NCBI RefSeq assembly: GCF_016865485.1
Contig: NZ_AP024452.1
Span: forward strand, 1,696,501 to 1,760,500
Direction: 5' to 3'
Length of the DNA: 64,000 nucleotides
Origin: Luteitalea sp. TBR-22
Lineage (GTDB): Bacteria; Acidobacteriota; Vicinamibacteria; Vicinamibacterales; Vicinamibacteraceae
Shown here in pieces: positions 4,652-19,991 of this stretch; the stretch's first letter is position 1, and the number at the start of each line of letters is the position of its first letter. A program made the translations under genes and the position numbers. Under the pieces are notes generated by a model. That model ran no database searches and was not told the origin of the DNA. It saw nothing but the letters and a program-made list of their open reading frames with translations.

Positions 4652-5342
4652 GCCTCACCCCGCGCGTGCTCGAGATCCGGCAGAAGGTCCTGTCGCGCAA
4701 CGACGAGCTCGCCCGCGCGCTGCGTGCCCGCCTTCGCGGGCACGGGGTGTTCACCCTCAACCTCGTCTCGAGCCCCGGCACCGGCAAGACGCGCCTGCTC
4801 GAGGTCCTGCTCCGCCGGCTCGTGGAGCGGGGCATCCGCGTCCATGCACTGGTCGGCGACCTGGCGACCGACAACGACGCGCAGCGGCTCGCGCGCAGCG
4901 GCGCGCCGGTGCGGCAGATCCTCACGCAGGGCCGATGTCATCTCGAGGCCGAGATGATCGCGCAGCACCTCGAGGGTTGGGACCTCGAAGCCTGCGACCT
5001 GCTGGTGATCGAGAACGTCGGCAACCTCGTGTGCCCGTCGAGCTACGACCTCGGGGAGGATGCCCGCATCGCCTTGCTGTCGGTCACCGAAGGCGAGGAC
5101 AAGCCGCTCAAGTACCCCGCGATCTTCAACTCCGCGGACGTGGCGGTGATCACCAAGGTGGACCTGGCTGAGGCGTGCGAGGCCGACCTCGGGGCCCTGC
5201 ACGCCAACCTGCAGGCGATACGTCCCGGCATCACCGTGTTCGAGACCTCGGCGCGGACCGGGACCGGCCTCGACGCGCTCCTCGACTGGATCACCGCCCG
5301 GCAGTCCGAGCGAGGCGCGTCCCTGCAGGGCGCGGCGCCGCG

Positions 5343-5346
<4 letters not shown>
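4648..5346 (+). CDS. hypB: hydrogenase nickel incorporation GTPase HypB
   Basis: A 232-residue SIMIBI-class GTPase. Walker A is SSPGTGKT (about residue 41), the G-domain metal site has the Cys-His pair in GRCHLE, the switch region reads [10 protein letters not shown], and the base-specificity motif is TKVD. Unlike many HypB proteins there is no His-rich nickel-storage tail at the N terminus, so it probably acts purely as the GTP-driven switch that dimerises and hands nickel to HypA. Starts inside the hypA stop and ends inside the hypD start, so translation is likely coupled. Confidence 0.96.
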
Positions 5347-6449
<1,103 letters not shown>

Positions 6450-6450
6450 C

Positions 6451-7536
6451 ATGGCCGAGACCGCATTGCCCGGACCCGGCGGCGGCCCGGACTTCGAGTC
6501 CTGGGCGTGTCCGCTGCCCTTGCGCGACTACCCGCGCGTGGTGCTCGGGCACGGCGGCGGCGGCGCGCTGTCGGAGGAACTGGTCCGGCACCTTTTCGTG
6601 CCCGCCTTCGGCAACCCGGCGCTCGACGCGCTCGGCGATGCCAGCCTCGTCGACGTTCCCGCCGGGCGGCTCGCACTCTCGACCGACGGCTTCGTCGTGC
6701 GACCGCTGGTCTTCCCGGGAGGCAGCATCGGCGAGCTCGCGGTCAACGGCACGGTCAACGATCTCGCGATGCGCGGCGCCACGCCGCTCTACCTCACCGC
6801 GGGCTTCGTGATCGAGGAAGGGCTGGCGATGTCGGTGCTCGGCACCGTGGTGGCGCGCATGGCGGCGGCGGCAGCGGCGGCCGGCGTGCAGATCGTCGCG
6901 GGCGACACCAAGGTGGTCGAGCGCGGCCACGGCGACAGCCTCTACGTGACGACGACGGGCGTCGGCGTGGTGCCGTCGGGCCTGCCGCCCATCGGCCCGG
7001 CGCAGGCCCGGCCTGGCGACAAGGTGTTGTTGAGCGGATCGATCGGCGATCACGGCATCGCCGTGATGAGCGTGCGCGAGTCGCTCGCCTTCGAGACCGC
7101 GATCGTCAGCGACTGCGCGGCCCTGCACGGCCTGGTCGGCTGCATCCTCCACGACGATGGGCGCATCCGCGTGCTGCGCGATCCGACGCGGGGCGGGCTC
7201 GCGGCCACCCTGAACGAGATCGCCACCGCCTCGGCGGTGGGCATCGTGATCGACGAGCGCCGCGTGCCGGTGAAGCCCGAGGTGCGCGGCGCCTGCGACC
7301 TGCTCGGCCTCGACCCCTGGCACGTGGCCAACGAGGGCAAGTGCGTCGCCGTCGTCGCCGCCGACGCGGCCGCCGAGGTGCTCGCCGCGTGGCGCGCGCA
7401 CCCGCTCGGTCGCGACGCGGCGATCATCGGCGAGGTCGAGGCGGGACGTCCGGGCCTGGTCGCCACGCGCACTTCCCTCGGGGCGACCCGCGTGGTGCCC
7501 ATGCCGCTCGGGGAACTGTTGCCCCGGATCTGCTGA
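6451..7536 (+). CDS. hypE: hydrogenase maturation protein HypE (carbamoyl dehydratase)
   Basis: A 361-residue member of the PurM/AIR-synthase-like family. The ATP-binding fold shows GHGGGGALSEEL, STDGFVV, VNGTVNDLAM and the glycine-rich GDTKVV. It ends in PRIC, the invariant C-terminal Cys that HypF carbamoylates and HypE dehydrates to thiocyanate. The start is one base after the hypD stop. Together with hypA, hypB and hypD it forms an unbroken plus-strand operon. Confidence 0.97.
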   Translation: MAETALPGPGGGPDFESWACPLPLRDYPRVVLGHGGGGALSEELVRHLFVPAFGNPALDALGDASLVDVPAGRLALSTDGFVVRPLVFPGGSIGELAVNGTVNDLAMRGATPLYLTAGFVIEEGLAMSVLGTVVARMAAAAAAAGVQIVAGDTKVVERGHGDSLYVTTTGVGVVPSGLPPIGPAQARPGDKVLLSGSIGDHGIAVMSVRESLAFETAIVSDCAALHGLVGCILHDDGRIRVLRDPTRGGLAATLNEIATASAVGIVIDERRVPVKPEVRGACDLLGLDPWHVANEGKCVAVVAADAAAEVLAAWRAHPLGRDAAIIGEVEAGRPGLVATRTSLGATRVVPMPLGELLPRIC

Positions 7537-8275: not shown

Positions 8276-8289
8276 GCCGGCTACGGCTC
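8274..8289. terminator. short hairpin over two converging stop codons
   Basis: GAGCCG (8274-8279) and CGGCTC (8284-8289) form a perfect six-base stem around a four-base loop exactly where the nickel permease and the FHA regulator genes end head to head. It could act as a small two-way terminator. There is no T-run on either side, so this is weak. Confidence 0.3.
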
Positions 8290-8943
8290 GCGGCGGACCC
8301 GCTCCGTCCGCGCCGCCGTCGCGTCGGCCCACGCGCGATAGGTGATCGAGGCCGCGCCGAGCTCGATGAGGTCGCCGTCCTGCAGGACGCGGGGCTGCGT
8401 CACGCGCTCGCCGCGCACGAACGTGCCGTTGCTCGAGTCGAGATCCTCCACCGTGGCCTCCCCGTCGCGCACCAGGAGCCGGGCGTGTCGCCGTGACACG
8501 CCGGAGGCATCCACCCACACGTCGCTGCGCGGGTCGCGCCCGATCACGTACGTGCCGTCGGCGAGTGGAAAGGGGCGGTCGTCGCGCACCAGCCAGCACA
8601 GCGGCTCGGCGGCCCGACCCGGCTGGCGTTTCGCGAGGTCCTGCGCGGGACCGCTGAAGGCGTACCCGACGCGATGCACGGTGCGGATGAAGCTGGCCTG
8701 ACGCGAGTCGTCGCCGATCACCTGGCGTACTTCCGCGACGACGACGCTGAGGTTGGCCTCGCTCACGAACGTGTCGGGCCAGAGGTGCTCCTGGATCTCG
8801 CGCTTGGTGACCACGGCCGGGCGGCGCTCGAGCAGCAGCCGCAGCAGGTCGAACGCCTTGGGCGACAGGTGCGCGCGCGCCTCGCCGTCGAGCAACTCGC
8901 GCGTGGCGGAATCGAACGTGAAGCGGCCGAAGGCGACCTTCAT
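8281..8943 (-). CDS. winged-helix DNA-binding protein with C-terminal FHA domain
   Basis: A 220-residue protein. Residues 1-100 form an OmpR/CadC-type winged helix (LSPKAFDLLRLLLE, then VHRVGYAF), with no receiver domain in front. Residues about 130-205 form a canonical forkhead-associated domain (VIGRDPRSD, GVSRRHARL, DSSNGTF), which binds phosphothreonine peptides. The logical reading is a transcription factor that senses Ser/Thr phosphorylation directly, and it diverges by about 90 bases from the operon that encodes a Ser/Thr kinase and phosphatase. ATG 8943 is chosen since the winged helix starts there; a GTG at 9024 would add 27 residues of no evident structure. Confidence 0.85.
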   Translation of the reverse strand: MKVAFGRFTFDSATRELLDGEARAHLSPKAFDLLRLLLERRPAVVTKREIQEHLWPDTFVSEANLSVVVAEVRQVIGDDSRQASFIRTVHRVGYAFSGPAQDLAKRQPGRAAEPLCWLVRDDRPFPLADGTYVIGRDPRSDVWVDASGVSRRHARLLVRDGEATVEDLDSSNGTFVRGERVTQPRVLQDGDLIELGAASITYRAWADATAARTERVRREP

Positions 8944-9035: not shown

Positions 9036-9941
9036 ATGACGACGGCGAAGGCGCCCAGCGGGCGCGACATCTGGCAGGCGGTGCGAGACGAACTGCGGCT
9101 CAACCTGTACCCGCTGCCGTTCAGCACGCTGGCCCCGACCGTCTACCACGTCTACCTCCACGCCGAGGACTTCGCCGCCATCGAGGGCATCGTCCCGGCG
9201 ATCGTCGCGCAGGTGGGGCAGGCGCTCACCGCGGAGGTCGAGCGGCTCAACCGGGAGATGGGCAGCCGCGTGAAGACGATCATGGCGCGCCTGCTCGAGC
9301 GCGACCGTCTGGGAGCGATCGAGATGCCCCCGTCGGGATGGGACGTCCACATCCTTCGCGATCCGGACGAGGAACTGGCGCGCGGCCAGATCGGCATCGT
9401 GTCGACGCTGGCCATGCCCGCGCCGGTCGAGCAGGGGGGCACGCCCACCACGCGCATCGTGCGCAGCGTCGTCGGCGGCGGCGCGCGGAGCGCCGCGGTG
9501 TCGGAGGTGCCGGTGTCGTCGGTGGGCGCGTCCGGTGCGGCGGTGGGCGGGGCGGCGGCGGCTCGAGGCGCCGACGTGAGCGGCGGGCGCGATCGCGCCC
9601 GCCTGGTGTACCAGGACGATCAGGGCCCGCACACCTTCGTGATGCGCAAGGACGCCATCGCCGTCGGCCGGGGCGGCAGCGCCGTGTGGGTCGACGTGCA
9701 GATCGCCACCAGCGCGCGGGTCTCGCGCGAGCACCTGCGCATCCGGTGCGACGGCGGCGGGCGGTTCTTCGTCCAGGACGTCAGCGTGTGGGGCACCACC
9801 GTCGACGACGTCGCCATCCCGCCGGCCGTGCAGGGCGCCGAGGGCGTCCTGCAGCCGGGCGCGGAGCACCCCTTGCCGGCCCGCGCCCGCATCGGCCTGG
9901 CCGGCGCGATCGTCATCGCCTTCGAGGCGCTGGGGGCGTGA
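9036..9941 (+). CDS. FhaA-like protein: DUF3662-type N-terminal domain plus FHA domain
   Basis: A 301-residue cytoplasmic protein. The N-terminal about 130 residues resemble the DUF3662/FhaA N-domain (opening with a helix, then SGWDVHIL), a low-complexity Ala/Gly/Val linker covers about 140-190, and a C-terminal FHA-like domain follows (AVGRGG, RVSREHLRI). The usual Asn-Gly of the FHA loop is replaced by Trp-Gly-Thr, so phosphopeptide binding may be altered. GGAGGGG sits directly before ATG 9036. This is the first gene of the phospho-signalling/cell-wall operon. In actinobacteria FhaA is a kinase substrate that ties PknB to peptidoglycan synthesis; the same role here is inference. Confidence 0.8.
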   Translation: MTTAKAPSGRDIWQAVRDELRLNLYPLPFSTLAPTVYHVYLHAEDFAAIEGIVPAIVAQVGQALTAEVERLNREMGSRVKTIMARLLERDRLGAIEMPPSGWDVHILRDPDEELARGQIGIVSTLAMPAPVEQGGTPTTRIVRSVVGGGARSAAVSEVPVSSVGASGAAVGGAAAARGADVSGGRDRARLVYQDDQGPHTFVMRKDAIAVGRGGSAVWVDVQIATSARVSREHLRIRCDGGGRFFVQDVSVWGTTVDDVAIPPAVQGAEGVLQPGAEHPLPARARIGLAGAIVIAFEALGA

Positions 9942-10030
9942 TGGCCTGGCTGCACGTCCTCTTCCTCCTCTCGCTCGTCTCGGCGGTCGGCTGGATCGGC
10001 TGGCTGGCGTGGAGCCACGACCGTGACTGA
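9941..10030 (+). CDS. 29-residue single-pass membrane peptide
   Basis: ATG 9941 overlaps the stop of the upstream FHA gene (TGATG) and its own TGA (10028-10030) lies beyond the start of the phosphatase gene (GTG 10023), so it is coupled on both sides. The product starts MAWLHVLFLLSL, is one transmembrane helix with three Trp residues, and ends in the charged SHDRD. The perfect fit between two genes suggests a real, translated micro-protein that may anchor or modulate a membrane partner (kinase, phosphatase tail or SEDS-PBP). No homolog is recognised. Confidence 0.6.
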   Translation: MAWLHVLFLLSLVSAVGWIGWLAWSHDRD

Positions 10031-11618
10031 GGCCACGGCCGTCCGGGCCTGGCAGGCCGCGGCGCGGTCCGACGCGGGCCGCGTGCGCACCAACAACGAG
10101 GACCTGCCGCTGCTGGACGCAGAGCGCGGGTTGTTCGGCGTGATCGACGGCGTCGGCGGCCACGCGGCCGGCGAGCTGGCCGCCGCGATCGCCCGCGACG
10201 TCATCCTGCAGCGGCTGGCGCGCCCGCTCGGCACGCCGGCCGAGCGCGTGCGCGAGGCGATCGCGCTGGCCAACAACGAGATCTACCGCCGGGCGAGCAC
10301 CTCGCAGGAGCTCGCCGGCATGACCTGCGTGGTGACGCTGGCGCTGGTGGCCGACGGCCGCCTCACCATCGGCCACGTCGGCGACAGTCGCCTCTACACG
10401 ATGGGCGTCGAGGGGCTCCGCAAGCGCACGCACGACCACTCGCCGGTCGGCGAGCGCGAGGACGCCAACGAGATCGGCGAGATCGAGGCGATGCGACACC
10501 CGCGCCGCCACGAGGTGTTCCGCGACGTCGGCAGTGCGTTGCGCGACAAGGACGAGGCGCATTACGTCGACGTCGTGGAGGCGGCGATCGGCGAGGACGA
10601 GGCGCTGCTGGCCTGCAGTGACGGCCTCACCGACATGGTGCCGTCGTCGACGATCGAGCGGCTGGTGCGCGAGCACGCCGGCGATCCTGCCGCCGTGGCC
10701 GGGGCGCTGGTGGCTGCCGCCAACGAGGCGGGGGGGCGCGACAACGTGACGGTGGTGTACGCCGAAGGTCCGCGGTTCGCCGCGGCGCTGCGTGGCGCGC
10801 TCGTCGCGGCGCCGACCCGCGGCAGCAGCGAGGTCGGCAGGGCACGACCGGGGCCGGTGCGCCGTCTGCTGGCCAGCCGCACGACGTGGTTCGCCCTGGG
10901 AGCACTCATCGGCGTGCTCGGCGCGCTGCTGCTCGCCTGGCGGGCCGCGACGCTCACCCCGATCGGCGGTCGCACCATCGTCGCCGCGCCGCAGGCGTCG
11001 GCCAGCGTCGGCACGCTCGCGCAGGCCGTGCAGGCGGCGCGTCCCGGCGACGTCATCCGGCTCGAGCCCGGCACGTATGCCGAGGCCGTCACCGTGCCCG
11101 AGGGCGTGTCGCTCAGGGCCCGCGTCACCGGCGCGTCGGTGTTCGTCCGCCCCGCCGGCGCGGTCGGCGACTGGACGGCGGTCACGGCGACCGGCGTCCA
11201 GGGGGGGACGGTCGCGGGTATTCGCATCACGTCGACCACCGAGGCGCCCGTGCAGGTCGGCGTGCGGGTGATCGGGCAGGGGCGTGCCCTCGAACTGCTG
11301 CAGGTCGAAGGGCCGGTCACCAGCGGCGTCGAACTGGACGCCGGCGCCTCGGCGGCCCTGTCGGGCAGCACGTTTGCGGTGCCGTCGGGCGCCGTGCGCC
11401 TGGGGCCGCGCGCCGAGCTCGACGCCACCGGCAACCTGGTACAGGCCGCCGGTCGTGCGGCCGGGCCTGGCGTCGTCGTCGGCGAAGCGGCGCGCGTCGC
11501 CCTGCGCCGCAACGTGTTTGCAGGCTTTGGCGCGTCACCGGTGGCCGGCCTGCCCGACGTCGAGCGGGAACCGCTGCGCGCCGCCAACGTCGTTGTCTCC
11601 GAGTCCTCCTCCCGCTAG
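10023..11618 (+). CDS. PP2C-type Ser/Thr phosphatase with transmembrane helix and beta-helix tail
   Basis: 531 residues. Residues about 10-250 are a PP2C/PstP phosphatase: RTNNED, DGVGGHAAGE, HVGDSRLY, CSDGLTDMV and GRDNVTVVY carry the metal-binding aspartates. A transmembrane helix lies near 285-305. After it, about 220 residues begin with a parallel beta-helix-like pattern (VQAARPGDVIRLEPGTY) typical of pectate-lyase-fold/DUF1565 domains, here placed outside the cytoplasm. PstP in actinobacteria also has one helix and a short tail, but a beta-helix tail is unusual and could bind glycan. Starts at GTG 10023 inside the 29-residue gene; the kinase gene follows after 17 bases. Confidence 0.9.
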   Translation: MTEATAVRAWQAAARSDAGRVRTNNEDLPLLDAERGLFGVIDGVGGHAAGELAAAIARDVILQRLARPLGTPAERVREAIALANNEIYRRASTSQELAGMTCVVTLALVADGRLTIGHVGDSRLYTMGVEGLRKRTHDHSPVGEREDANEIGEIEAMRHPRRHEVFRDVGSALRDKDEAHYVDVVEAAIGEDEALLACSDGLTDMVPSSTIERLVREHAGDPAAVAGALVAAANEAGGRDNVTVVYAEGPRFAAALRGALVAAPTRGSSEVGRARPGPVRRLLASRTTWFALGALIGVLGALLLAWRAATLTPIGGRTIVAAPQASASVGTLAQAVQAARPGDVIRLEPGTYAEAVTVPEGVSLRARVTGASVFVRPAGAVGDWTAVTATGVQGGTVAGIRITSTTEAPVQVGVRVIGQGRALELLQVEGPVTSGVELDAGASAALSGSTFAVPSGAVRLGPRAELDATGNLVQAAGRAAGPGVVVGEAARVALRRNVFAGFGASPVAGLPDVEREPLRAANVVVSESSSR

Positions 11619-11635
11619 CCGCGAGTTCCCTTCCC

Positions 11636-13651
11636 ATGCCCTGGCAGGTCGCTGGATACGAGACCGACGCCGACAAGCCCTTCGATCAGGGCAGCTTCGG
11701 CACCGTGTGGCACGCCCGGCGCGTGCGTGACGGGTTGCGGGTGGCGCTCAAGCTGGTGCGGCGCGCGCATGGCGCCGACGCGGCCGAGCGGATCGATGCC
11801 GAGCGCCGCGGCGCCATGCTACAGAAGGCCTTCCACGAGGCGCACGGCATGGTGCCGGCGGTGTTCGACGTGGGCCATGACGCCGACGGCGACCTGTACA
11901 TCGCCATGGAGCTGATCGAGGGCGGATCGCTGGCCGAGGCGATCGCGGCCGGTCCGCTGCCGCCCGAGGTCGCGATCGGCCACGCGCTGGCGATCTGCGG
12001 GTTCCTCGAGAAGGCGCACGGCTTCGCGACCACGATCGAAGGCGATCGGTACGACCGGCTCGTGCACGCCGACCTCAAGCCCGGTCACATCGTCGCGCGC
12101 CACGGCGTGGACAGCGTGGCCGGCGACCTGGTGGTGCTCGACTTCGGCATCGCCAAGGCGCTCCACAAGGCGACGCCGCTCACCACCAACAACTGGGGGA
12201 CCTCGGCGTACATGTCGCCGGAGCGGTTGATCGACGGACGCGTCGACGAGCAGGTCGACTACTGGTCGCTCGGCGTGATCCTGTTCGAGATGCTGGCGGG
12301 GCACCGGCCCTATCGCGCCCTGCAGGCGCCGTCGCTCAAGGCGCAACTCGAGCGCGCCATCCGGGGCAACGAGCCGCGCGAGCCGCTGCCGCAGTCGGTG
12401 CCCGCCGGCCTGGTCGCCGTCGTCAACCGCCTGCTGGCGTACCAGCCGGAGCGGCGGTATCCCAGCGCGGCCCTCCTCCGCGCCGACCTGCAGGCGTGTC
12501 TCGAGGGGCGCCGGCCGTCGGCGCTGGCCGACTGGGACACGCCGGCGACGATGCGCGTCGACGAGGCGACCGAGCGGCGCGTGACGCCGATGGTCCCGCC
12601 ACCGCTGCCCGCGCTCCCCGGAGCGGCGGGAGCCGTGCCGCCGACCGAGCCGCGGGGTCTGGGCGAGGCCGACGGGCGCGGGTGGGTGCCGCCGCCCATC
12701 CCGGTGCGCACCGAAGCTGCTGGCGACGAACGGCCCGGGGCCGCGCCCGCGGCAGCGGGGCGGGCCGACGGGCCGGCGCCGCGACCACGCCGCTTTCGCC
12801 GCCTGGTGTCGGCGCTCGTCGTGCTGGTGGTGCTCTACCTGGCCATGCTCGAGGCCGTGGCGTGGCTGCAGGCCGAGCGCTTGCGCGACGTCGTGCCGAC
12901 GATCGACGGCCCGTCGCTGACGGCGGCCGAGGCCAGCTACGCACGCGTGGCGCAGAACGGCACGCTCGACCTCGGCCTGCGGCTCCGGGTGAACGGGCTA
13001 CTGCGCGAGCACCTGCTCGGCCTGGCCGGCCGCGTCGTCGAGGACTACCGGAGCGAGCAGCCGTCGCTGTCGCTCTCCGACTGGAAGCAGGCGCAGCAGG
13101 CGCTGCAATGGGCCCTCCGCCTGTCGCCGGGCGACCGTCGCCTCGAGGCGCGGCTGGCACTGTGCGAGGCGCACATCCTGCGCATCGCGCCCCGTCCGGG
13201 CCGATCGGCGGCGACGCAGGCCACCTACCGGAGGGCGATCGATCGATTCCGGGCTGCGGCGCGCCTCGACCCGGAGTCGTTCGACGCGTATCTCGGCATC
13301 TCCCGCATCGCCGTCTACGGACTCGTGCCCGCCGACGTCGAACTGGCGAGCGAGGCGATGGCCGCGGCCGAGCAGCGCGGCTACGTGCAGGGCCGACGCG
13401 AGCGCGCGCTGCTCGGCGACGGACACATGCGGCGTGGCGACACGCTGCGACGGGAGGCGCGCAGCCTCTCGGGTGCGGAGCGTGCGAGGGCCCTGGAGGG
13501 CGCGCGCGACAGCTTCACGGCGTGCGTCGAGGCCTTCGAGCCCATCCTCGGGTTCGCCAACGCCGCCCGGAACATCGAGACCTGCAAGGCGCAACTGGAC
13601 GACGTCGAGGAGGCGCTCCTCGCGGCGGCCGGAAGTGCGGAGCCAGAGTGA
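11636..13651 (+). CDS. transmembrane Ser/Thr protein kinase
   Basis: 671 residues. Kinase domain 1-300: glycine loop DQGSFGTVW, ATP-anchoring Lys39 in VALK, catalytic Asp146 in HADLKPGH, DFG at 169-171, activation-segment end YMSPERL. The residue that normally is Asn in DLKPxN is His151, a substitution at a metal-ligand position, so activity should be tested rather than assumed. A Pro-rich linker (about 310-385) leads to one transmembrane helix (about 392-412) and an extracytoplasmic region of helical repeats, TPR-like, instead of PASTA repeats. It shares its last base pair step with the SEDS-PBP start (TGATG). Likely phosphorylates the FHA proteins or the fused wall synthase. Confidence 0.92.
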   Translation: MPWQVAGYETDADKPFDQGSFGTVWHARRVRDGLRVALKLVRRAHGADAAERIDAERRGAMLQKAFHEAHGMVPAVFDVGHDADGDLYIAMELIEGGSLAEAIAAGPLPPEVAIGHALAICGFLEKAHGFATTIEGDRYDRLVHADLKPGHIVARHGVDSVAGDLVVLDFGIAKALHKATPLTTNNWGTSAYMSPERLIDGRVDEQVDYWSLGVILFEMLAGHRPYRALQAPSLKAQLERAIRGNEPREPLPQSVPAGLVAVVNRLLAYQPERRYPSAALLRADLQACLEGRRPSALADWDTPATMRVDEATERRVTPMVPPPLPALPGAAGAVPPTEPRGLGEADGRGWVPPPIPVRTEAAGDERPGAAPAAAGRADGPAPRPRRFRRLVSALVVLVVLYLAMLEAVAWLQAERLRDVVPTIDGPSLTAAEASYARVAQNGTLDLGLRLRVNGLLREHLLGLAGRVVEDYRSEQPSLSLSDWKQAQQALQWALRLSPGDRRLEARLALCEAHILRIAPRPGRSAATQATYRRAIDRFRAAARLDPESFDAYLGISRIAVYGLVPADVELASEAMAAAEQRGYVQGRRERALLGDGHMRRGDTLRREARSLSGAERARALEGARDSFTACVEAFEPILGFANAARNIETCKAQLDDVEEALLAAAGSAEPE

Positions 13652-16600
13652 TGCGCATCATCGACACGGCCGCGACGCGGCCGTCTGCCCGACGTCGGCA
13701 CCCGCGGGCCCATCGTGCCGCGGCCACGGAACTGCTCGCGCTGGTGCTGGCCTCCGCGGTGGTGACGCTGGGCGTGGCGCTTGCCGTCATGGGGCGACTG
13801 GTGCCGAGGGCGGGTGCGCCTGCGGCATCTCCGCTGCTGCTGGCCGACGTCCGTTCGCCCGAGACGCTGGCACCCCTGCTGGTCTCCTTCGACGGGCCGG
13901 GCGAGCGCCTGGCGGTGGCCGAGCGGCTGGTGCGGCACCTGGCGACGCACGAGGTGCCGAGCCATGTCGGCGCGCTCGCCGCGGTCACGATCCCGGCCGC
14001 CGACGTCCGCGCCGATCGTCGCTTCGATGCCGTCCGCGCCCGAGTCGGCGACCGCAACGGCGCGGTCCCGGTGCGGCTCCTCGCCCCCTCGGACCTGGCA
14101 GCGCTCAAGGCGCGCGTCATCGTCCGCACCGCCTCGACCTACATCCGCAGCGTCGCGATCGCGCTGGCCTGGATGCTGGCCGCCTTCTGGGGGGCGCACG
14201 CGGTGCGCCGGTGGCGGGGACGACCCGACGACCCGGTGCTGCTGCCGATCCTGCTGGTGCTGGCCGGCGTCGGCCTGATGGCGCTGGTCGGCGTGCGCGA
14301 TCCGCTGCGCGACACCATGCTCGCGCCGCCGTTCGCCCTGGGCATCGTCGCCGGCGTGGCCGTGCTGCTCGTCGCGTCCGAGATCGATTACGAATCCTGG
14401 GTGCTGCGGCGGGCGGTGGTGGCGCCGCTCGGGGCCGCGCTCGGGCTCGCCGCCCTGCTCCTCGTGTTCGGCTCGGGACCGGGCACGAGTGGCGTCAAGG
14501 TGAACCTGCTGGGCGTCCAGCCGGTCGAGATCATCCGCCTGCTCGTCGTGTTCGCGATGGCCGGCGCCCTGGCGCGCCGTCTCGACCTGCTGCGCGCGCT
14601 CTCCGAGCCCGCGACGCCCGACCGGCCATGGCTCGGCCTGCTGCGTGCGCCGCGATGGCGGGACGTGCGCCCGGTGGTCGGCAGCATGGCGCTGGTGCTG
14701 GCGTTCTTCTTCCTGCAGAAGGATCTCGGCCCGGCCCTGGTGCTGTCCGGGGTGGTGCTGGCGCTGTATGCGGTGGCCCGTGGGCGGGCCGTCGCGGTCG
14801 TCCTCGGCCTGGTGATGCTCGTCGCGGCGTTCGCGGCCGCCGAGGCCATCGGCGTGCCGGCCACGGTGGGGCAGCGTGTCCGCATCTGGAGCCAGCCGTG
14901 GAACAACGGCGTGGTGGGAGGCAACCAGATCGCGCACGGTCTATGGGCGATGGCATCCGGGGCCGGATGGGGCTCGGGGCCGGCGATTGCCTCGCCGCAG
15001 TTCATCCCCGAAGGCCACACCGACTTCGTGATCGCGGCCGTCGGTGAGCAGCTCGGTTGGGTGGGCGTGTGCGTGGTGTTCGCGCTGTACGGCCTGCTGG
15101 CCTGGCGCGGGCTCCGGGTGGCCGTGCGTGCGCCCGGCGACTACAGCGCCCTGCTCGGGATCGGGCTGACGCTGGCGTTGATGGTGCAGGCGGGCGTGAT
15201 TGCCGCCGGCGTTCTCGGCCTGCTGCCGCTCACCGGCGTGGTCACGCCGTTCCTCAGCCACGGCCGGTCGTCGATGCTGGCCAACTGCGCGGCGCTCGGC
15301 GTGCTGCTGGCCATCGCCCGTCGGCAGGGCGCGGTGCGCGAGCACCTGCGACAGCCGGTGCGGGTGCTCGCCTCGACGCTGGCGGGCGCGGCGCTGGTCA
15401 TCGTGGGGCGAGCCGGCTGGGTGCAGGTGGTGCATGCCGACGCGATCGCGACCACGCCCAGTCTCAGCGAGCAGGCCGACGGCGGCTTCCGCTTCGAGTA
15501 CAACCCACGGCTGGTGGCTGCGGCGCGGGCCCTCGAGCGCGGGACCATCACCGATCGCCAGGGGCTGGTGATCGCGACGAGCCGGCGCGCCGAGATGGCG
15601 GCGATCCCGGCGGCCTGGGAACGCGCCGGCCTGACTCCGGCGCGGCCGTGCGACGAGGACGCATCGCGCTGCTATCCGCTCGGCGGCGTCGCCTTCGGCG
15701 TGCTGGGCGACTGGGCGACGCAGGCCAACTGGGGCGCGCGCAATGCCTCGTTCATCGAGCGCGAACGAGACACGACGCTGAAAGGCTTCGACGATCACCA
15801 GCGGCTCGTCGACGTGCCCCATCCGCGCACCGGCGAGGTCCACCGGGTCGTGCTCCGCGACTACTCGGCGCTGTTGCCGATCGTCCGTCACGGCCTCGAC
15901 CGCTCCCGCCCGGACGTCGCGCTGCTGCTGTCGCGGCCGCGCGACCTGCAGGTGTCGCTCGACGCGCGCCTGCAGCAGCGGGTGGGCCAGGCCCTGCGCG
16001 CCCGCATCGAGCGCGGCGCGCACGCGCGCGGCGCGGCCGTGGTGATCGACGTGGACACCGGCGCGGTCCTCGCCTCGGTGAGCTACCCCTGGCCCGCCGA
16101 CGTCGACGGCGTTCGGCCCGACGAGGACCGCGCCCGCGACGCCTTGCTCGATCGCGCGCGCTACGGCCTCTACCCGCCCGGGTCGACCTTCAAGTTGCTG
16201 GTCGCGGCGGCCACCCTGCGCAGCCACCCGGAACTGCAGGCCGTGCCGCACGTGTGCCAGCGACTGCCGGGTGGGCGGGTCGGCGCCCACATCGACGGCT
16301 GGTCGCGGCCCGTGCGAGACGACGTGATGGACACGGTGCCGCACGGCGCGGTGGACCTGCACCGCGGCCTGGTGGTCTCCTGCAACGCCTACTTCGCCCA
16401 GCTCGCCATGGACCTCGGGCCGCGCGCCCTCATCGACGCGGTGTCGCCGTTCCAGATCGAGGTGGCGCGCCCGTCGACCGAGCGGGCGCTGCGCGGCACG
16501 CTGCCGCATGCCGCCTACGGCCAGGCCCAGGTGCTGGCCTCGCCGATGAAGATGGCGCGCGTCGCTGCGGCCATCGCGGGAGGCGGCATCGTCACGCCGA

Positions 16601-16941
16601 TCGCGTGGACCGATGGTGAGGCAGGCGCGGGGGACACGGCGACGCAGTGGCTCGCGCCCGCCGATGCCGAGAGGCTGGCGCGCGACATGCGCGACGTGGT
16701 CACCGCCGGCACCGGCCGCAGCCTGGCGGGCAACCCCACGCCGATCGCCGGCAAGACCGGCACGGCCGAGGTCGACGGCCGGCCGGCGCACTCGTGGTTC
16801 GTCGGGTTCGCCCCCCATGGCGGCGCGCGTCGGATTGCCTTTGCCGTCCTCGTCGAGCACGCCGGCTATGGCGGCCGCACCGCCGCGCCCGTCGCCGGCG
16901 ACATCGTCGACGCGGCGCGCGCCCTCGGCTACTTCCGCTGA
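13651..16941 (+). CDS. SEDS glycosyltransferase (RodA/FtsW type) fused to class B PBP transpeptidase
   Basis: A single 1,096-residue chain. After a signal-anchor and an extracytoplasmic segment, residues about 160-590 are a polytopic RodA/FtsW/SpoVE domain with FLQKDLGPAL (about 353) and the extracellular-loop signature PEGHTDF (453-459) that includes the Asp proposed as catalytic. Residues about 600-1090 are a class B penicillin-binding protein: active-site Ser845 and Lys848 in PGSTFK, SCN at 910-912, KTGTAE from 1035. Normally these are two proteins that pair to polymerise and crosslink peptidoglycan. The reading frame is continuous with no stop or frameshift between halves. Coupled to the kinase gene upstream and seven bases from the FHA gene downstream. 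Confidence 0.95.
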   Translation: MRIIDTAATRPSARRRHPRAHRAAATELLALVLASAVVTLGVALAVMGRLVPRAGAPAASPLLLADVRSPETLAPLLVSFDGPGERLAVAERLVRHLATHEVPSHVGALAAVTIPAADVRADRRFDAVRARVGDRNGAVPVRLLAPSDLAALKARVIVRTASTYIRSVAIALAWMLAAFWGAHAVRRWRGRPDDPVLLPILLVLAGVGLMALVGVRDPLRDTMLAPPFALGIVAGVAVLLVASEIDYESWVLRRAVVAPLGAALGLAALLLVFGSGPGTSGVKVNLLGVQPVEIIRLLVVFAMAGALARRLDLLRALSEPATPDRPWLGLLRAPRWRDVRPVVGSMALVLAFFFLQKDLGPALVLSGVVLALYAVARGRAVAVVLGLVMLVAAFAAAEAIGVPATVGQRVRIWSQPWNNGVVGGNQIAHGLWAMASGAGWGSGPAIASPQFIPEGHTDFVIAAVGEQLGWVGVCVVFALYGLLAWRGLRVAVRAPGDYSALLGIGLTLALMVQAGVIAAGVLGLLPLTGVVTPFLSHGRSSMLANCAALGVLLAIARRQGAVREHLRQPVRVLASTLAGAALVIVGRAGWVQVVHADAIATTPSLSEQADGGFRFEYNPRLVAAARALERGTITDRQGLVIATSRRAEMAAIPAAWERAGLTPARPCDEDASRCYPLGGVAFGVLGDWATQANWGARNASFIERERDTTLKGFDDHQRLVDVPHPRTGEVHRVVLRDYSALLPIVRHGLDRSRPDVALLLSRPRDLQVSLDARLQQRVGQALRARIERGAHARGAAVVIDVDTGAVLASVSYPWPADVDGVRPDEDRARDALLDRARYGLYPPGSTFKLLVAAATLRSHPELQAVPHVCQRLPGGRVGAHIDGWSRPVRDDVMDTVPHGAVDLHRGLVVSCNAYFAQLAMDLGPRALIDAVSPFQIEVARPSTERALRGTLPHAAYGQAQVLASPMKMARVAAAIAGGGIVTPIAWTDGEAGAGDTATQWLAPADAERLARDMRDVVTAGTGRSLAGNPTPIAGKTGTAEVDGRPAHSWFVGFAPHGGARRIAFAVLVEHAGYGGRTAAPVAGDIVDAARALGYFR

Positions 16942-16947
16942 CCTGCC

Positions 16948-17772
16948 ATGGACGTCACCACTCTCACCGCCCTGGGCCGCACCCTGCACGCGCGCCTTCG
17001 TACCTTCCTCGATGCGCCACTGGCGCCGGATGCCTCGCCACTCGAGATCGCGCAGGCCGCCCTCGACGACGTCGAGCGGCAGGCACAGCCGGCCTCGGAA
17101 GGGCGACGGGTGTTCCCCTTCACCCGGGTGACGATCCGCGTGCGCGCCCCGCAGGAGGAATGGGCCGCCTTCGAGGCCGTGCTCGACGGCATGGACGCGC
17201 GCGTCCGGGCCAGGCTGGCCGAGGTGCGATGCGAGACGCCCCGCGGGCTGGAGGTGCGCGTCACCTGTGAGCCGGTGGGCGAGGGCGGACGCGGGTTCCT
17301 CGTCGACTACGAGCGCCTGACGAGTGGCGCCCTGGCGGCCCCGCCGCCCGTCCTCGCCGTCACCGTGCTGCGGGGCAAGGCGCTGGCCGCGACGTGGCGG
17401 TTCACGGAGGGCACCGTCCTGGTCGGGCGGACCAGCGAGGCGGCGCTCGAGACCGCGCCGCTGCGCCGTCACCACCTCGCCTTCGCCGATGCGCGCGACG
17501 GCGTCACCGAGACGGTCGGTCGTTCCCACGCGCGCATCAGGTTCGACGCCGCCAGCCGGGCGTACCGCGTCTACGACGAGGGCAGCCACAACGGGACATC
17601 CGTGCTCCGGGATGGCGAGGTACTGGCGGTGCCGCGCCGCGACCCCCGCGGCCTCCGCCTCCGCCACGGCGACGAGATCCAGTTCGGGCGCGCCCTGGTG
17701 CGGATCGAGATCGCCGAGCCCGGGGTGGTCGTCGCGGCTCCGCCGGCATCGCCGCCCCCAGGGCCGGGCTAA
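16948..17772 (+). CDS. FhaA-like FHA-domain protein, second copy
   Basis: 274 residues. The N-terminal half is similar in layout to the DUF3662-type domain of the first gene in this operon (short helices, then VTIRVRAPQEEW). The C-terminal half (about 145-255) is a standard FHA domain with VGRTSE, VGRSHARI and GSHNGTSV, so unlike the first FHA gene it keeps the full phosphothreonine pocket. It follows the SEDS-PBP gene by six bases and closes the operon. A likely role is to dock onto the phosphorylated kinase or synthase. A Pro-rich tail ends the protein. Confidence 0.85.
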   Translation: MDVTTLTALGRTLHARLRTFLDAPLAPDASPLEIAQAALDDVERQAQPASEGRRVFPFTRVTIRVRAPQEEWAAFEAVLDGMDARVRARLAEVRCETPRGLEVRVTCEPVGEGGRGFLVDYERLTSGALAAPPPVLAVTVLRGKALAATWRFTEGTVLVGRTSEAALETAPLRRHHLAFADARDGVTETVGRSHARIRFDAASRAYRVYDEGSHNGTSVLRDGEVLAVPRRDPRGLRLRHGDEIQFGRALVRIEIAEPGVVVAAPPASPPPGPG

Positions 17773-17816
17773 AGCCTCCCGGATCCCTGTCGATTGGTGG
17801 GACGAGTTCGGCAGGC

Positions 17817-19991
17817 ATGCGCCTCGCCGCGGTCCCTCTCCTCCCCGAGACCTGGATGTCGTCGCCTGCCCTGCACCCTCGCAATGTCCCGAACGATGCG
17901 AGGGCGGGCGTCGAACCGGCCGCCGCTGCGCCGGCCTCCGTCCACGAAGCGGTCGCGGGCGTGCAGCAGGCCCTTCTGTGGGGCCTGGACATCGACGAGT
18001 GTCGGCACCTCGCGCTGCATGCCTGCCTCGACCTGACCGACGGCACGTGGTCGGCGCTGGTGTGCAGCCCCGGCGACGCGTCGCCCGTGGTGCTGCTCGA
18101 GCACGCGGGCCACCGGCGCGCCGCCGAGTGGGAGGCCGCGACGCTGCTGGCCGCCTGCGCCACCGAACTGCCCGACGCCTGCCGCCACCGGCAGCCCCGG
18201 GCGTTGCGCCTCCGGCGACCGGCGGCCGAGGGGCCACGGCGGGTGCGCGACGACACGCTGCTCGTCCTGCCCGTGCCGGGCGCGGCGAGTGCGCCGCCTT
18301 CGACCCTGCTGGTCGTGCGGGAGGCGCCAGCCGACGCCGATGCGTGCGCGGCGGCCCTCGACCCGCTGCTCCGGCTCACCGGCCAACTCGACGCGCTCTC
18401 GCGCGAAGTGCAGGCCCGTCGGTCGGCCGAGCGCGCCCTCGAGCGCGAGCGTCACCGCCTCCACCTGGCACTCGCGGCGTCCGACGTCGGGGTCTTCGAG
18501 TTCCACGCGCGGTCCGGCGTGCTCGAGTGGGACGAGCGCCTCTGGGCGATGCACGGCCTCGAACCGCGCGCCCAGTGGACCCTGGGCGACTGGGCCGGCG
18601 TGGTGCATCCCGACGACGCGCACGCCGCCATCGACGACCTGATGGCGGCCGTCGAGCAGCGGGCGCCACTGCAGACCCAGTACCGCGTGGTGACGCCGAC
18701 CGGGGAGGTGCGCTACATCCGCTGCAACGCGCGCGTGCTCGAGCCCGACGGCGAACCGCTGGTGGTCGGCGTCAACATCGACATCACCGCCGACATCCTG
18801 GTGCAGCAGGAACTGGCCGCCGAGCGGGCGCAGGCCGAGGCGGCGACGCGTGCCAAGTCGCAGTTCCTGGCGACGATGAGCCACGAGATCCGGACGCCGA
18901 TGAACGGCGTGCTCGGGATGCTGGAGCTGCTGCTCCGCAGTGGCCTCACGCCCGAGCAACTCGAGCGCGCCACCACGGCGCACACGTCGGCCGAGTCGCT
19001 GCTGCGCATCCTCAACGACATCCTCGACCTGTCCAAGCTCGAACAGCATCAGGTCGCCATCGAGTCGATCCCCTACCAGCCCGCGCAGGTGCTCAGCGAG
19101 GTGATGGCGCTGTTGCGGCCGCGCGCCACCGAGAAGGGGCTGGCCTTCGAACTGCACCTCGACGGCCTCGTGCCACCGTGGATTGCCGGCGACCCCATGC
19201 GCCTTCGGCAGGTCCTGCTGAACCTCACCGGCAATGCCATCAAGTTCACCAGCCAGGGCAGTGTCACGGTGCGCGCATCCCTCGATCGCGGCGACGCCGC
19301 GCGGCCGCGGCTGCGGATGGAGATCGTCGACACCGGCGAGGGCATCTCGTCGGACGCGCAGGGGCGGCTGTTCCAGCAGTTCGTGCAGGCCGATTCGTCC
19401 ACGTCGCGTCGTTTCGGCGGCACCGGTCTCGGGCTGGCGATCAGCAAGCAGCTGATCGAACTGATGGGGGGCCGCATCGGCGTCAGCAGCCGGCCGGGTG
19501 CCGGCAGCACGTTCTGGTTCGAGGTGCCCGCGATCGCGACGGTGCCGTCCGGGCCGCGCCGCCCGGTCGCGCCTGTCGTGTCGGCGCGCCCGGCGCGCCC
19601 GGGCGTGCCGCCGCTCCGGATTCTGGCCGTGGACGACAACGCCGTGAACCGCCGCATCGCGCAGGCGTTCCTGGTGCCCCACGGGCATTCCGTGACCGTC
19701 GTCGAGGGAGGCGCCGAGGCCCTGGCCAGGCTGCAGGCCGAGCCGTTCGACATGGTCCTGCTCGACGTGCAGATGCCGGTCATGGACGGTCCGGCCTGCC
19801 TCGCGCAGTTGCGCACCCTGGACGCGCCGGTGCGCGACCTGCCGGTGATCGCCGTGACCGCCAACGCGATGGCGGGCGATCGTGAGAAGTACCTCGACGC
19901 GGGGTTCGACGACTACGTGTCCAAGCCGATGACCATGGCCGGTCTCGGCGAGGCCGTGGCGCGGGCGTGGACGGGGCGGCGTCGGTCCTGA
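17817..19991 (+). CDS. hybrid sensor histidine kinase (PAS-HisKA-HATPase-receiver)
   Basis: 724 residues with no clear membrane segment, so probably cytosolic. The first 190 residues may be a GAF-like sensor; a PAS domain spans about 220-325 (FEFHARSGVLEW to VVGVNIDIT). The dimerisation box MSHEIRTPMNGVLGM gives phospho-His356; ATP-binding motifs are NLTGNAIKFT, DTGEGIS and GGTGLGLAI. A C-terminal receiver carries Asp650 in LLDVQMPVMDG and Lys in VSKPM. It lies 44 bases after the second FHA gene in the same direction and may be read through from that operon. No separate output regulator adjoins it. A second in-frame ATG lies 13 codons on. Confidence 0.92.
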   Translation: MRLAAVPLLPETWMSSPALHPRNVPNDARAGVEPAAAAPASVHEAVAGVQQALLWGLDIDECRHLALHACLDLTDGTWSALVCSPGDASPVVLLEHAGHRRAAEWEAATLLAACATELPDACRHRQPRALRLRRPAAEGPRRVRDDTLLVLPVPGAASAPPSTLLVVREAPADADACAAALDPLLRLTGQLDALSREVQARRSAERALERERHRLHLALAASDVGVFEFHARSGVLEWDERLWAMHGLEPRAQWTLGDWAGVVHPDDAHAAIDDLMAAVEQRAPLQTQYRVVTPTGEVRYIRCNARVLEPDGEPLVVGVNIDITADILVQQELAAERAQAEAATRAKSQFLATMSHEIRTPMNGVLGMLELLLRSGLTPEQLERATTAHTSAESLLRILNDILDLSKLEQHQVAIESIPYQPAQVLSEVMALLRPRATEKGLAFELHLDGLVPPWIAGDPMRLRQVLLNLTGNAIKFTSQGSVTVRASLDRGDAARPRLRMEIVDTGEGISSDAQGRLFQQFVQADSSTSRRFGGTGLGLAISKQLIELMGGRIGVSSRPGAGSTFWFEVPAIATVPSGPRRPVAPVVSARPARPGVPPLRILAVDDNAVNRRIAQAFLVPHGHSVTVVEGGAEALARLQAEPFDMVLLDVQMPVMDGPACLAQLRTLDAPVRDLPVIAVTANAMAGDREKYLDAGFDDYVSKPMTMAGLGEAVARAWTGRRRS

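Follow-up and report, generated by a model that had tools for sequence, protein, structure and literature searches.

A fused SEDS-PBP gene in an FHA, phosphatase and kinase locus of Luteitalea sp. TBR-22: a candidate third type of wall synthase in Acidobacteriota

Introduction

PMC6554272 reports for Actinobacteria that pstP shares a transcript with rodA and pbpA, that pknA/pknB and fhaA/fhaB lie in the same cluster, and that knockdown leads to wall changes. It extends the pknB-fhaA linkage to a subset of Firmicutes; control of the FHA-PP2C-kinase-RodA-penicillin-binding protein (PBP) kind is described there for Actinobacteria and, in part, for Firmicutes. SEDS proteins of Firmicutes are treated in PMC10693644. 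Among full-text, open-licence PMC papers, as far as the best matches go, no paper on this locus in Acidobacteria was found. The locus described here lies in a stretch of 64,000 nucleotides from Luteitalea sp. TBR-22 (contig NZ_AP024452.1, positions 1,696,501 to 1,760,500), hereafter the window, in whose numbering its features are given. Its central gene encodes a SEDS glycosyltransferase fused to a class B PBP (bPBP).

Acidobacteriota are a diderm phylum. Six genes are packed on the plus strand at 9036-17772, each junction being an overlap or a gap of at most 17 bases, in the order FhaA1, a 29-residue membrane peptide, PP2C phosphatase, Ser/Thr kinase, SEDS-PBP fusion and FHA2. An initial annotation, made from the letters alone, had named six coupled genes with these protein kinds, and Pfam matches, gene overlaps and motifs confirm all of them. 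It had mentioned neither the altered catalytic loop of the kinase nor a divergent regulator gene at 8281-8943. The locus is read here, with a probability of roughly 60%, as encoding a peptidoglycan synthase that is accessory to the canonical ones, belongs to a third SEDS-bPBP type and is under the control of Ser/Thr phosphorylation.

The SEDS-PBP fusion and the canonical wall synthases

On sequence evidence the fusion gene encodes one predicted polypeptide in which a SEDS polymerase and a transpeptidase are joined with their catalytic residues intact, and which is neither the genome's FtsW nor its RodA. The genome has three SEDS genes: one between murD and murG (judged by eye), one beside PBP2, and the fusion. 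Its own FtsW reaches 363.6 bits against NCBIfam TIGR02614 (cut-off 337.5) and its own RodA 373.4 bits against TIGR02210 (cut-off 336.7). The fusion stays below both cut-offs, with 163.2 and 140.0 bits respectively, and scores 153.1 bits against NCBIfam PBP2, for which the cut-off is 455. Six other SEDS proteins from FHA loci of three phyla (three actinobacterial, one clostridial, one Coriobacteriia fusion and one unfused acidobacterial protein) also reach neither the FtsW nor the RodA cut-off, the genome's own FtsW and RodA serving as positive controls. Thus the fusion shares domains, catalytic residues and the partner principle with canonical RodA-PBP2 and FtsW-FtsI, whereas it falls short of the FtsW, RodA and PBP2 equivalog cut-offs and separates from these proteins in trees. 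One relative (G051) carries, at C10:79976-81016, a fourth and divergent SEDS match (123.6 bits) besides FtsW, RodA and the fusion.

SEDS trees of 84 and 92 rows, made like the other trees by a quick method with SH-aLRT support only, divide in the same way: a branch with a starred support of 100 splits 34 canonical rows, including those of E. coli and of acidobacteria, from the FHA-locus rows. SEDS proteins of the actinobacterial pstP locus lie on the same side of this branch as the fusion, apart from FtsW and RodA. The canonical rows are the best-scoring 30 of 49 matches plus the genome's own and the E. coli FtsW and RodA; 15 of the other 19 matches are locus SEDS that stand in the trees under other identifiers, and 4 are in no tree. 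Actinobacterial loci were chosen from several dozen, 19 for the 84-row tree and 16 for the 92-row tree. The former is without L004, L038, L039 and L051 and has L042 shortened; the latter is without 8 of the 25 unfused rows (near-duplicates), L031 and L042.

Approximately unbiased (AU) tests were run under a simpler model on 47 rows (SEDS) and 53 rows (PBP), with groups chosen once the first trees were known. A clade of the fusion SEDS with acidobacterial RodA is rejected (p 7.8e-13), as is one of the PBP half with acidobacterial PBP2 (p 0.0037). The SEDS and PBP Pfam domains would also fit an ordinary RodA-PBP2 duplicate; the NCBIfam cut-offs and the AU tests rule this candidate out, and next to no probability is given to it. 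The PBP half agrees with the SEDS tree, more weakly, canonical PBP2 and FtsI joining at a starred 98 in 78 rows and at 91 in 53 rows. Long-branch pull is possible.

Acidobacterial fused SEDS (together with L058 and L061) and unfused SEDS form two groups, each with a starred 100, and their sisterhood receives an AU p of 0.546. In Coriobacteriia (Parvibacter caecicola, L072) a one-frame SEDS-PBP gene likewise stands beside FHA, PP2C and kinase genes; this fusion sits inside the actinobacterial SEDS group, unlike the acidobacterial one. Since unfused rows separate the two, fusion probably arose more than once. Clostridial SEDS-PBP sets also fall on the non-canonical side of the SEDS tree. An FHA match adjoins SEDS and PBP in three of nine of them (L086, L107, L132), which differ from the present locus in that SEDS and PBP are separate and no PP2C or kinase match is found in the locus. 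Two further contigs, both from metagenome-assembled genomes (MAGs), may be mentioned. L129, labelled Burkholderiales, bears an FHA-PP2C-SEDS-PBP-kinase set; this falls among actinobacterial rows, and the contig is perhaps misbinned. L130, labelled Chromatiaceae, has PBP and SEDS on the non-canonical side and no FHA match.

Within the fusion, Asp458, which we take to be the SEDS catalytic position, Ser845/Lys848, Ser910/Asn912 and Lys1035-Thr-Gly are invariant in all nine aligned fusions. Hydropathy indicates an extra N-terminal transmembrane (TM) pair enclosing about 110 residues. A named fold for this ectodomain was sought with Pfam; there is no match in the window protein, L046, L053 and L056, and matches in L048, L051 and L052 are sub-cut-off only (E 0.07 or worse). 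The Armatimonadota fusion L061 (9740-10300) carries an HHH_3 helix-hairpin-helix near its N-terminus, the sole recognised domain there among those scanned. The AlphaFold2 (AF2) model of the fusion has a mean pLDDT of 73.6 and a pTM of 0.59, and its PBP part gives Z 44.7 to P. aeruginosa PBP3 and Z 41.9 to residues 523-950 of a protein (4jbf) of Atopobium parvulum, another member of Coriobacteriia. This match, together with the one-frame genes of that class, means that naturally fused SEDS-PBP proteins are, as such, nothing new. As a natural one-chain polymerase-transpeptidase, such a protein offers a stable object for structural study of the coupling between the two activities.

Distribution of the fused and unfused forms

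Comparison across genomes shows the fusion to be co-conserved with two FHA proteins, a predicted TM phosphatase and TM kinase, and a putative membrane microprotein. Of 396 Acidobacteriota genomes, 12 contain a match to the fusion (E <= 1e-60, two candidates scored per genome). Seven of the 12 have FhaA1, PP2C, kinase, SEDS-PBP and FHA2 in this order: the window's own genome, G125, G362 (FHA2 truncated by the contig end), G341, G391, G196 and G242. In G188 the full set minus FhaA1 lies at a contig end, in G258 the set is split over two contigs, and in G051 the parts are rearranged, with other kinases. G333 and G059 have divergent sets, with FhaA_N above the Pfam cut-off and PP2C and kinase adjoining the fusion.

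The same gene order is found in at least five named contigs (L056, L057, L059, L060, L063), which brings the conserved order to at least 12 contigs in total; the patterns of the scan for named relatives favour the fusion. PBP and FHA2 are present in L062 and L064, at contig ends. Outside the usual arrangement, L058 (labelled Rhodothermales) combines the fusion and FHA2 with a PP2C on the opposite strand, and L061 (an Armatimonadota MAG) has the fusion without a nearby FHA, PP2C or kinase match. The search of 396 genomes settles the question, left by the initial annotation, of whether the set is private to one genome: it turns up in numerous family codes within Acidobacteriota.

Another form, in which PBP and SEDS are encoded by two genes, occurs in other family codes than the fused one and is seen in more genomes of the phylum. 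FhaA_N (PF12401) is found in at least 47 of the 396 genomes at E <= 0.001, 44 of them above cut-off; the tally is a floor because the window's own genome gives no match at this threshold. Among 14 control genomes only one (Corynebacterium) has the domain. In 16 of 50 windows drawn from 40 genomes, FhaA, PBP, SEDS, PP2C and kinase stand together with PBP and SEDS separate, and when windows are pooled by genome all five gene kinds are present in 22 of the 40. L293, for instance, has the order FhaA-PBP-SEDS-PP2C-kinase-FhaA. Its kinase (12102-13703) ends in an SH3_3 domain and its PP2C (10464-12023) has a weak TPR match, as against the TPR-like kinase and beta-helix-like PP2C of the fused form. 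The constant elements are thus FhaA, PP2C, kinase, SEDS and PBP, whereas the extracytoplasmic sensor parts vary. FhaA is alone in all four windows of G063. Three 20-kb windows from three genomes of one family code (L289, L306, L314) each have a pair of FhaA genes separated by about 8-9 kb, one of which adjoins a kinase gene. Matches to SEDS, PBP and PP2C are missing from these windows, at least partly, it may be, through window ends.

The scattered occurrence of the fused form could reflect horizontal transfer of an actinobacterial locus into acidobacteria, and the next best matches in named genomes are mostly actinobacterial FHA loci, among the matches listed. However, both fused and unfused acidobacterial SEDS lie outside the actinobacterial group in the 92-row tree, gene order is unlike, the GC content of the gene set (0.747) is near that of the window (0.72), and the branching of the fused-locus kinases resembles, by eye, that of the SEDS proteins; such a transfer is quite improbable. 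A recent transfer from Actinobacteria was rejected as the leading account for the first and third of these reasons. The initial annotation had also allowed for recent, unrelated arrival of the SEDS and kinase genes. The SEDS groups with actinobacterial FHA-locus SEDS and not with the genome's own RodA, and thirteen fused-locus kinases form one clade (starred 100), so they are not recent unrelated arrivals either.

FHA proteins and membrane microprotein

FhaA1 has a Pfam FHA match and reaches 20 bits against FhaA_N, below the curated cut-off of 25. Each of the 14 orthologues scanned gives both domains at E <= 0.1 (best FhaA_N 3e-6), and hhalign aligns FhaA1 with actinobacterial FhaA over 210 columns (E 6.6e-24). 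Gly211, Arg212, Ser230 and His233 of its FHA domain are invariant in 14 rows. For FHA2 the N-terminal likeness to actinobacterial FhaA is seen by profile-profile comparison only (hhalign probability 95.6, E 1.3e-8); Pfam FhaA_N gives no match in the window protein and matches 1 of 16 members, at E 0.064. In a 16-row FHA2 alignment Gly-Arg and His are invariant and Ser is variable. The AF2 model of FHA2 (mean pLDDT 79.9) places an alpha/beta domain before the FHA domain, and its FHA part superposes on many FHA structures, with Z 13.0 to the FhaA FHA domain 3oun. Residues 30-122 were scarcely probed by fold comparison because FHA domains filled the matches. A solved relative of the N-terminal domain was sought among PDB sequences; the best match (E 0.23) is an unrelated protein and was discarded.

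Between FhaA1 and PP2C, an open reading frame (ORF) of 25-50 codons with a hydrophobic helix is found in 12 of 14 gaps, where 0.09 would be expected from random same-strand windows. Differences between congeners in its codons are biased to third positions. Of the two gaps without a comparable microprotein, one belongs to the rearranged set L051, and the other, L050, has a longer ORF that ends in such a helix. The microprotein occupies the position that FhaB, with its TM and FHA parts, has in actinobacterial loci. One might guess that it is a stripped FhaB, the peptide being too short for comparison. It may anchor or couple FhaA1 to the membrane, as FhaB would in actinobacteria.

Phosphatase and kinase

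The phosphatase contains all of the PP2C motifs DGVGG, GDSR, SDG and DN. Its top-ranked NCBIfam family is Stp1/IreP (NF033484), at 176.9 bits and below the cut-off of 230, and residues 332-371 give a weak NosD-type match (NCBIfam). Only eight fused-locus rows passed the filters for the PP2C tree, L052 not being included. Seven of them join L053 (starred 97), and L058 stands apart from these seven.

The kinase ranks best against the NCBIfam PASTA kinase family (NF033483), with 137.8 bits where the cut-off is 450; Pfam gives no PASTA match in it at E <= 1. It retains DFG, the catalytic Asp and the ALKLV-strand Lys, and its catalytic loop reads HADLKPGH where HRDLKPxN is usual. The Arg of HRD is found in none of the thirteen kinases of the fused-locus clade. 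The Asn after KPx is kept by eight of them and replaced by His in the other five, in which the loop is HADLKPGH (window, L043, L044) or HNDLKPAH (L045, L060). Additional kinases, located at the ends of L045 and L049, lie outside the clade; the tree is without the G059 kinase and the third G051 kinase.

These loops, together with the 47 kinase-domain matches of the window genome, would suit a pseudokinase or scaffold within the clade, control of the synthase then falling to a different one among the many kinases encoded in this genome. The kept Lys, Asp and DFG and the preserved gene linkage argue otherwise, and this alternative is considered unlikely.

Comparison with the actinobacterial locus and proposed role

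The initial annotation called the locus a counterpart of the actinobacterial one. This stands as regards gene kinds and SEDS kinship: the actinobacterial fhaA-fhaB-pstP-rodA-pbpA-pknA-pknB locus also encodes an FhaA_N-FHA protein, a membrane PP2C, a membrane Ser/Thr kinase, a SEDS protein and a bPBP. It does not stand as a simple correspondence. Most actinobacterial loci are ordered FHA-FHA-PP2C-SEDS-PBP-kinase, whereas the order here is FhaA-TM-PP2C-kinase-SEDSPBP-FhaA. Actinobacterial loci have FhaB between FhaA and PstP where the acidobacterial locus has only the TM microprotein, and a PASTA kinase where the acidobacterial kinase is without PASTA. In addition, SEDS and PBP are fused here and a second FhaA-like gene stands at the end, and neither PP2C nor kinase is firmly tied to its actinobacterial namesake in the trees.

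Such differences could mean that local PP2C and kinase genes were gathered around an old SEDS-PBP pair, with only the SEDS (and FhaA-type) genes sharing descent; the likeness to the actinobacterial locus would then be functional. In keeping with this convergent assembly, gene order differs among actinobacterial, fused and unfused sets, sensor parts differ between the fused form and L293, and PP2C groups weakly with acidobacterial and Chloroflexi phosphatases while the kinase-PknB link is unstarred. Yet FhaA_N is confined to the Corynebacterium among the controls, FhaA-type, SEDS, PBP, PP2C and kinase genes are joined in both phyla, and the trees of PP2C and of the kinase are both short, with poor resolution. 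Convergent assembly is held to be rather unlikely.

Several observations weigh against a phosphorylation-controlled third synthase. On the non-canonical side of the 84-row SEDS tree, L061, L130 and six of the nine clostridial rows have no nearby FHA match, so FHA linkage is not universal there. FHA-locus PBPs do not form one starred clade in the PBP trees. The fused-locus phosphatases with L053 group with other acidobacterial and Chloroflexi PP2Cs (89, unstarred) and not with PstP, the kinship of the kinase with PknB-like kinases is at 84 and unstarred, and two G051 kinases and the G333 kinase lie outside the fused-locus clade. The positions of the HRD Arg and of the Asn, presumably metal-binding, are catalytic loop positions changed here to Ala and His, so the window kinase may be weak or inactive. 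In the FHA domains, FhaA1 of the window has Trp in place of what we take to be the usual Asn of NG (retained in L051, L059 and L063), and FHA2 has Gly where Ser is presumably usual. The spread is patchy: in G373, of the same family, and G014, of the genus of G391, neither of the two candidates scored reaches E <= 1e-60 against the fusion. Neither SEDS nor PBP is found in 19 of the 50 FhaA windows, partly through window ends.

The gene set is real and conserved, a third SEDS-bPBP class behind it is credible, and Ser/Thr phosphorylation probably controls wall growth at the acidobacterial locus. In the proposed working of this accessory synthase, kinase and phosphatase would sense the envelope through extracytoplasmic TPR-like and beta-helix-like parts. 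They may set threonine phosphorylation on partners, possibly each other, FHA ligands or lipid II transport, and the FhaA-like proteins could dock phospho-partners onto the synthase and so switch or place its local activity. Since the genome retains canonical FtsW and RodA-PBP2, the task of the third synthase should not be general elongation or division but wall synthesis under particular conditions or at particular sites.

A wider reading is put forward tentatively, at slightly less than even odds. FtsW-FtsI and RodA-PBP2 would be joined by a third, ancient class of wall synthases, the SEDS-bPBP pairs of FHA loci, with ties to Ser/Thr phosphorylation in many lineages. Its members would occur in Actinomycetota, Clostridia and Acidobacteriota, as well as in Chloroflexota and Armatimonadota, the last two represented by single MAG contigs. 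The actinobacterial pstP locus would then encode a 'RodA' that belongs to this class and is not orthologous to RodA of E. coli, and control of wall growth by phosphorylation would predate the monoderm-diderm divide or have crossed it. The data suggest that control of wall growth in the actinobacterial style is older and wider than thought. With the set known in fused and unfused forms, and with SEDS of shared descent, the age and core parts of the locus become testable.

Locus layout and neighbouring genes

Within the gene set (Table 1) three of the five junctions are overlaps and two are short gaps. The ATG of the micro-ORF at 9941 overlaps the FhaA1 stop by one base, the PP2C start at 10023 falls within the micro-ORF (which ends at 10030), and the SEDS-PBP ATG at 13651 overlaps the kinase stop by one base. 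The gaps are of 17 bases between PP2C and kinase (11618 to 11636) and of 6 bases between SEDS-PBP and FHA2 (16941 to 16948). A consensus search found no promoters at the locus and is little informative at such GC content.

Table 1. Genes of the SEDS-PBP locus and its divergent neighbour, with positions in the window.
Feature	Position	Strand	Evidence
Winged-helix (Trans_reg_C) and FHA regulator, divergent	8281..8943	-	Pfam FHA E 2.5e-21, Trans_reg_C 5.1e-17
FhaA1, FhaA_N-like domain and FHA	9036..9941	+	Pfam; 14 orthologues; hhalign
29-residue single-helix membrane microprotein	9941..10030	+	Small ORF recurring in FhaA1-PP2C gaps
PP2C phosphatase, one TM (about 286-312), C-terminal beta-helix-like region	10023..11618	+	Pfam PP2C E 7.1e-13; hydropathy; motifs
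Ser/Thr kinase, TM (about 386-414), C-terminal TPR-like region, loop HADLKPGH	11636..13651	+	Pfam Pkinase E 2.1e-29; sub-cut-off TPR; hydropathy
SEDS glycosyltransferase and class B PBP transpeptidase fusion	13651..16941	+	Pfam FTSW_RODA_SPOVE E 1.8e-47, Transpeptidase 9.6e-33
FHA2, FhaA_N-like domain (profile evidence only) and FHA	16948..17772	+	Pfam FHA E 7.5e-7; N-terminal hhalign

The start of the divergent regulator was moved from 9024 to 8943 because its orthologues align from residue 28. Orthologues adjoin the locus in L043, L044, L045, L048 and L060. The protein, whose FHA domain is canonical, resembles EmbR without its middle domain, and it could couple phosphorylation to transcription of the locus.

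Upstream, at 5175-7536 on the plus strand, are genes whose translations, judged by eye, resemble the hydrogenase maturation proteins HypD and HypE. Directly downstream, at 17394-19991 on the plus strand, is a hybrid histidine kinase, also judged by eye; among the related fused loci compared, a counterpart 3' of the locus is found in the congener L043 only.

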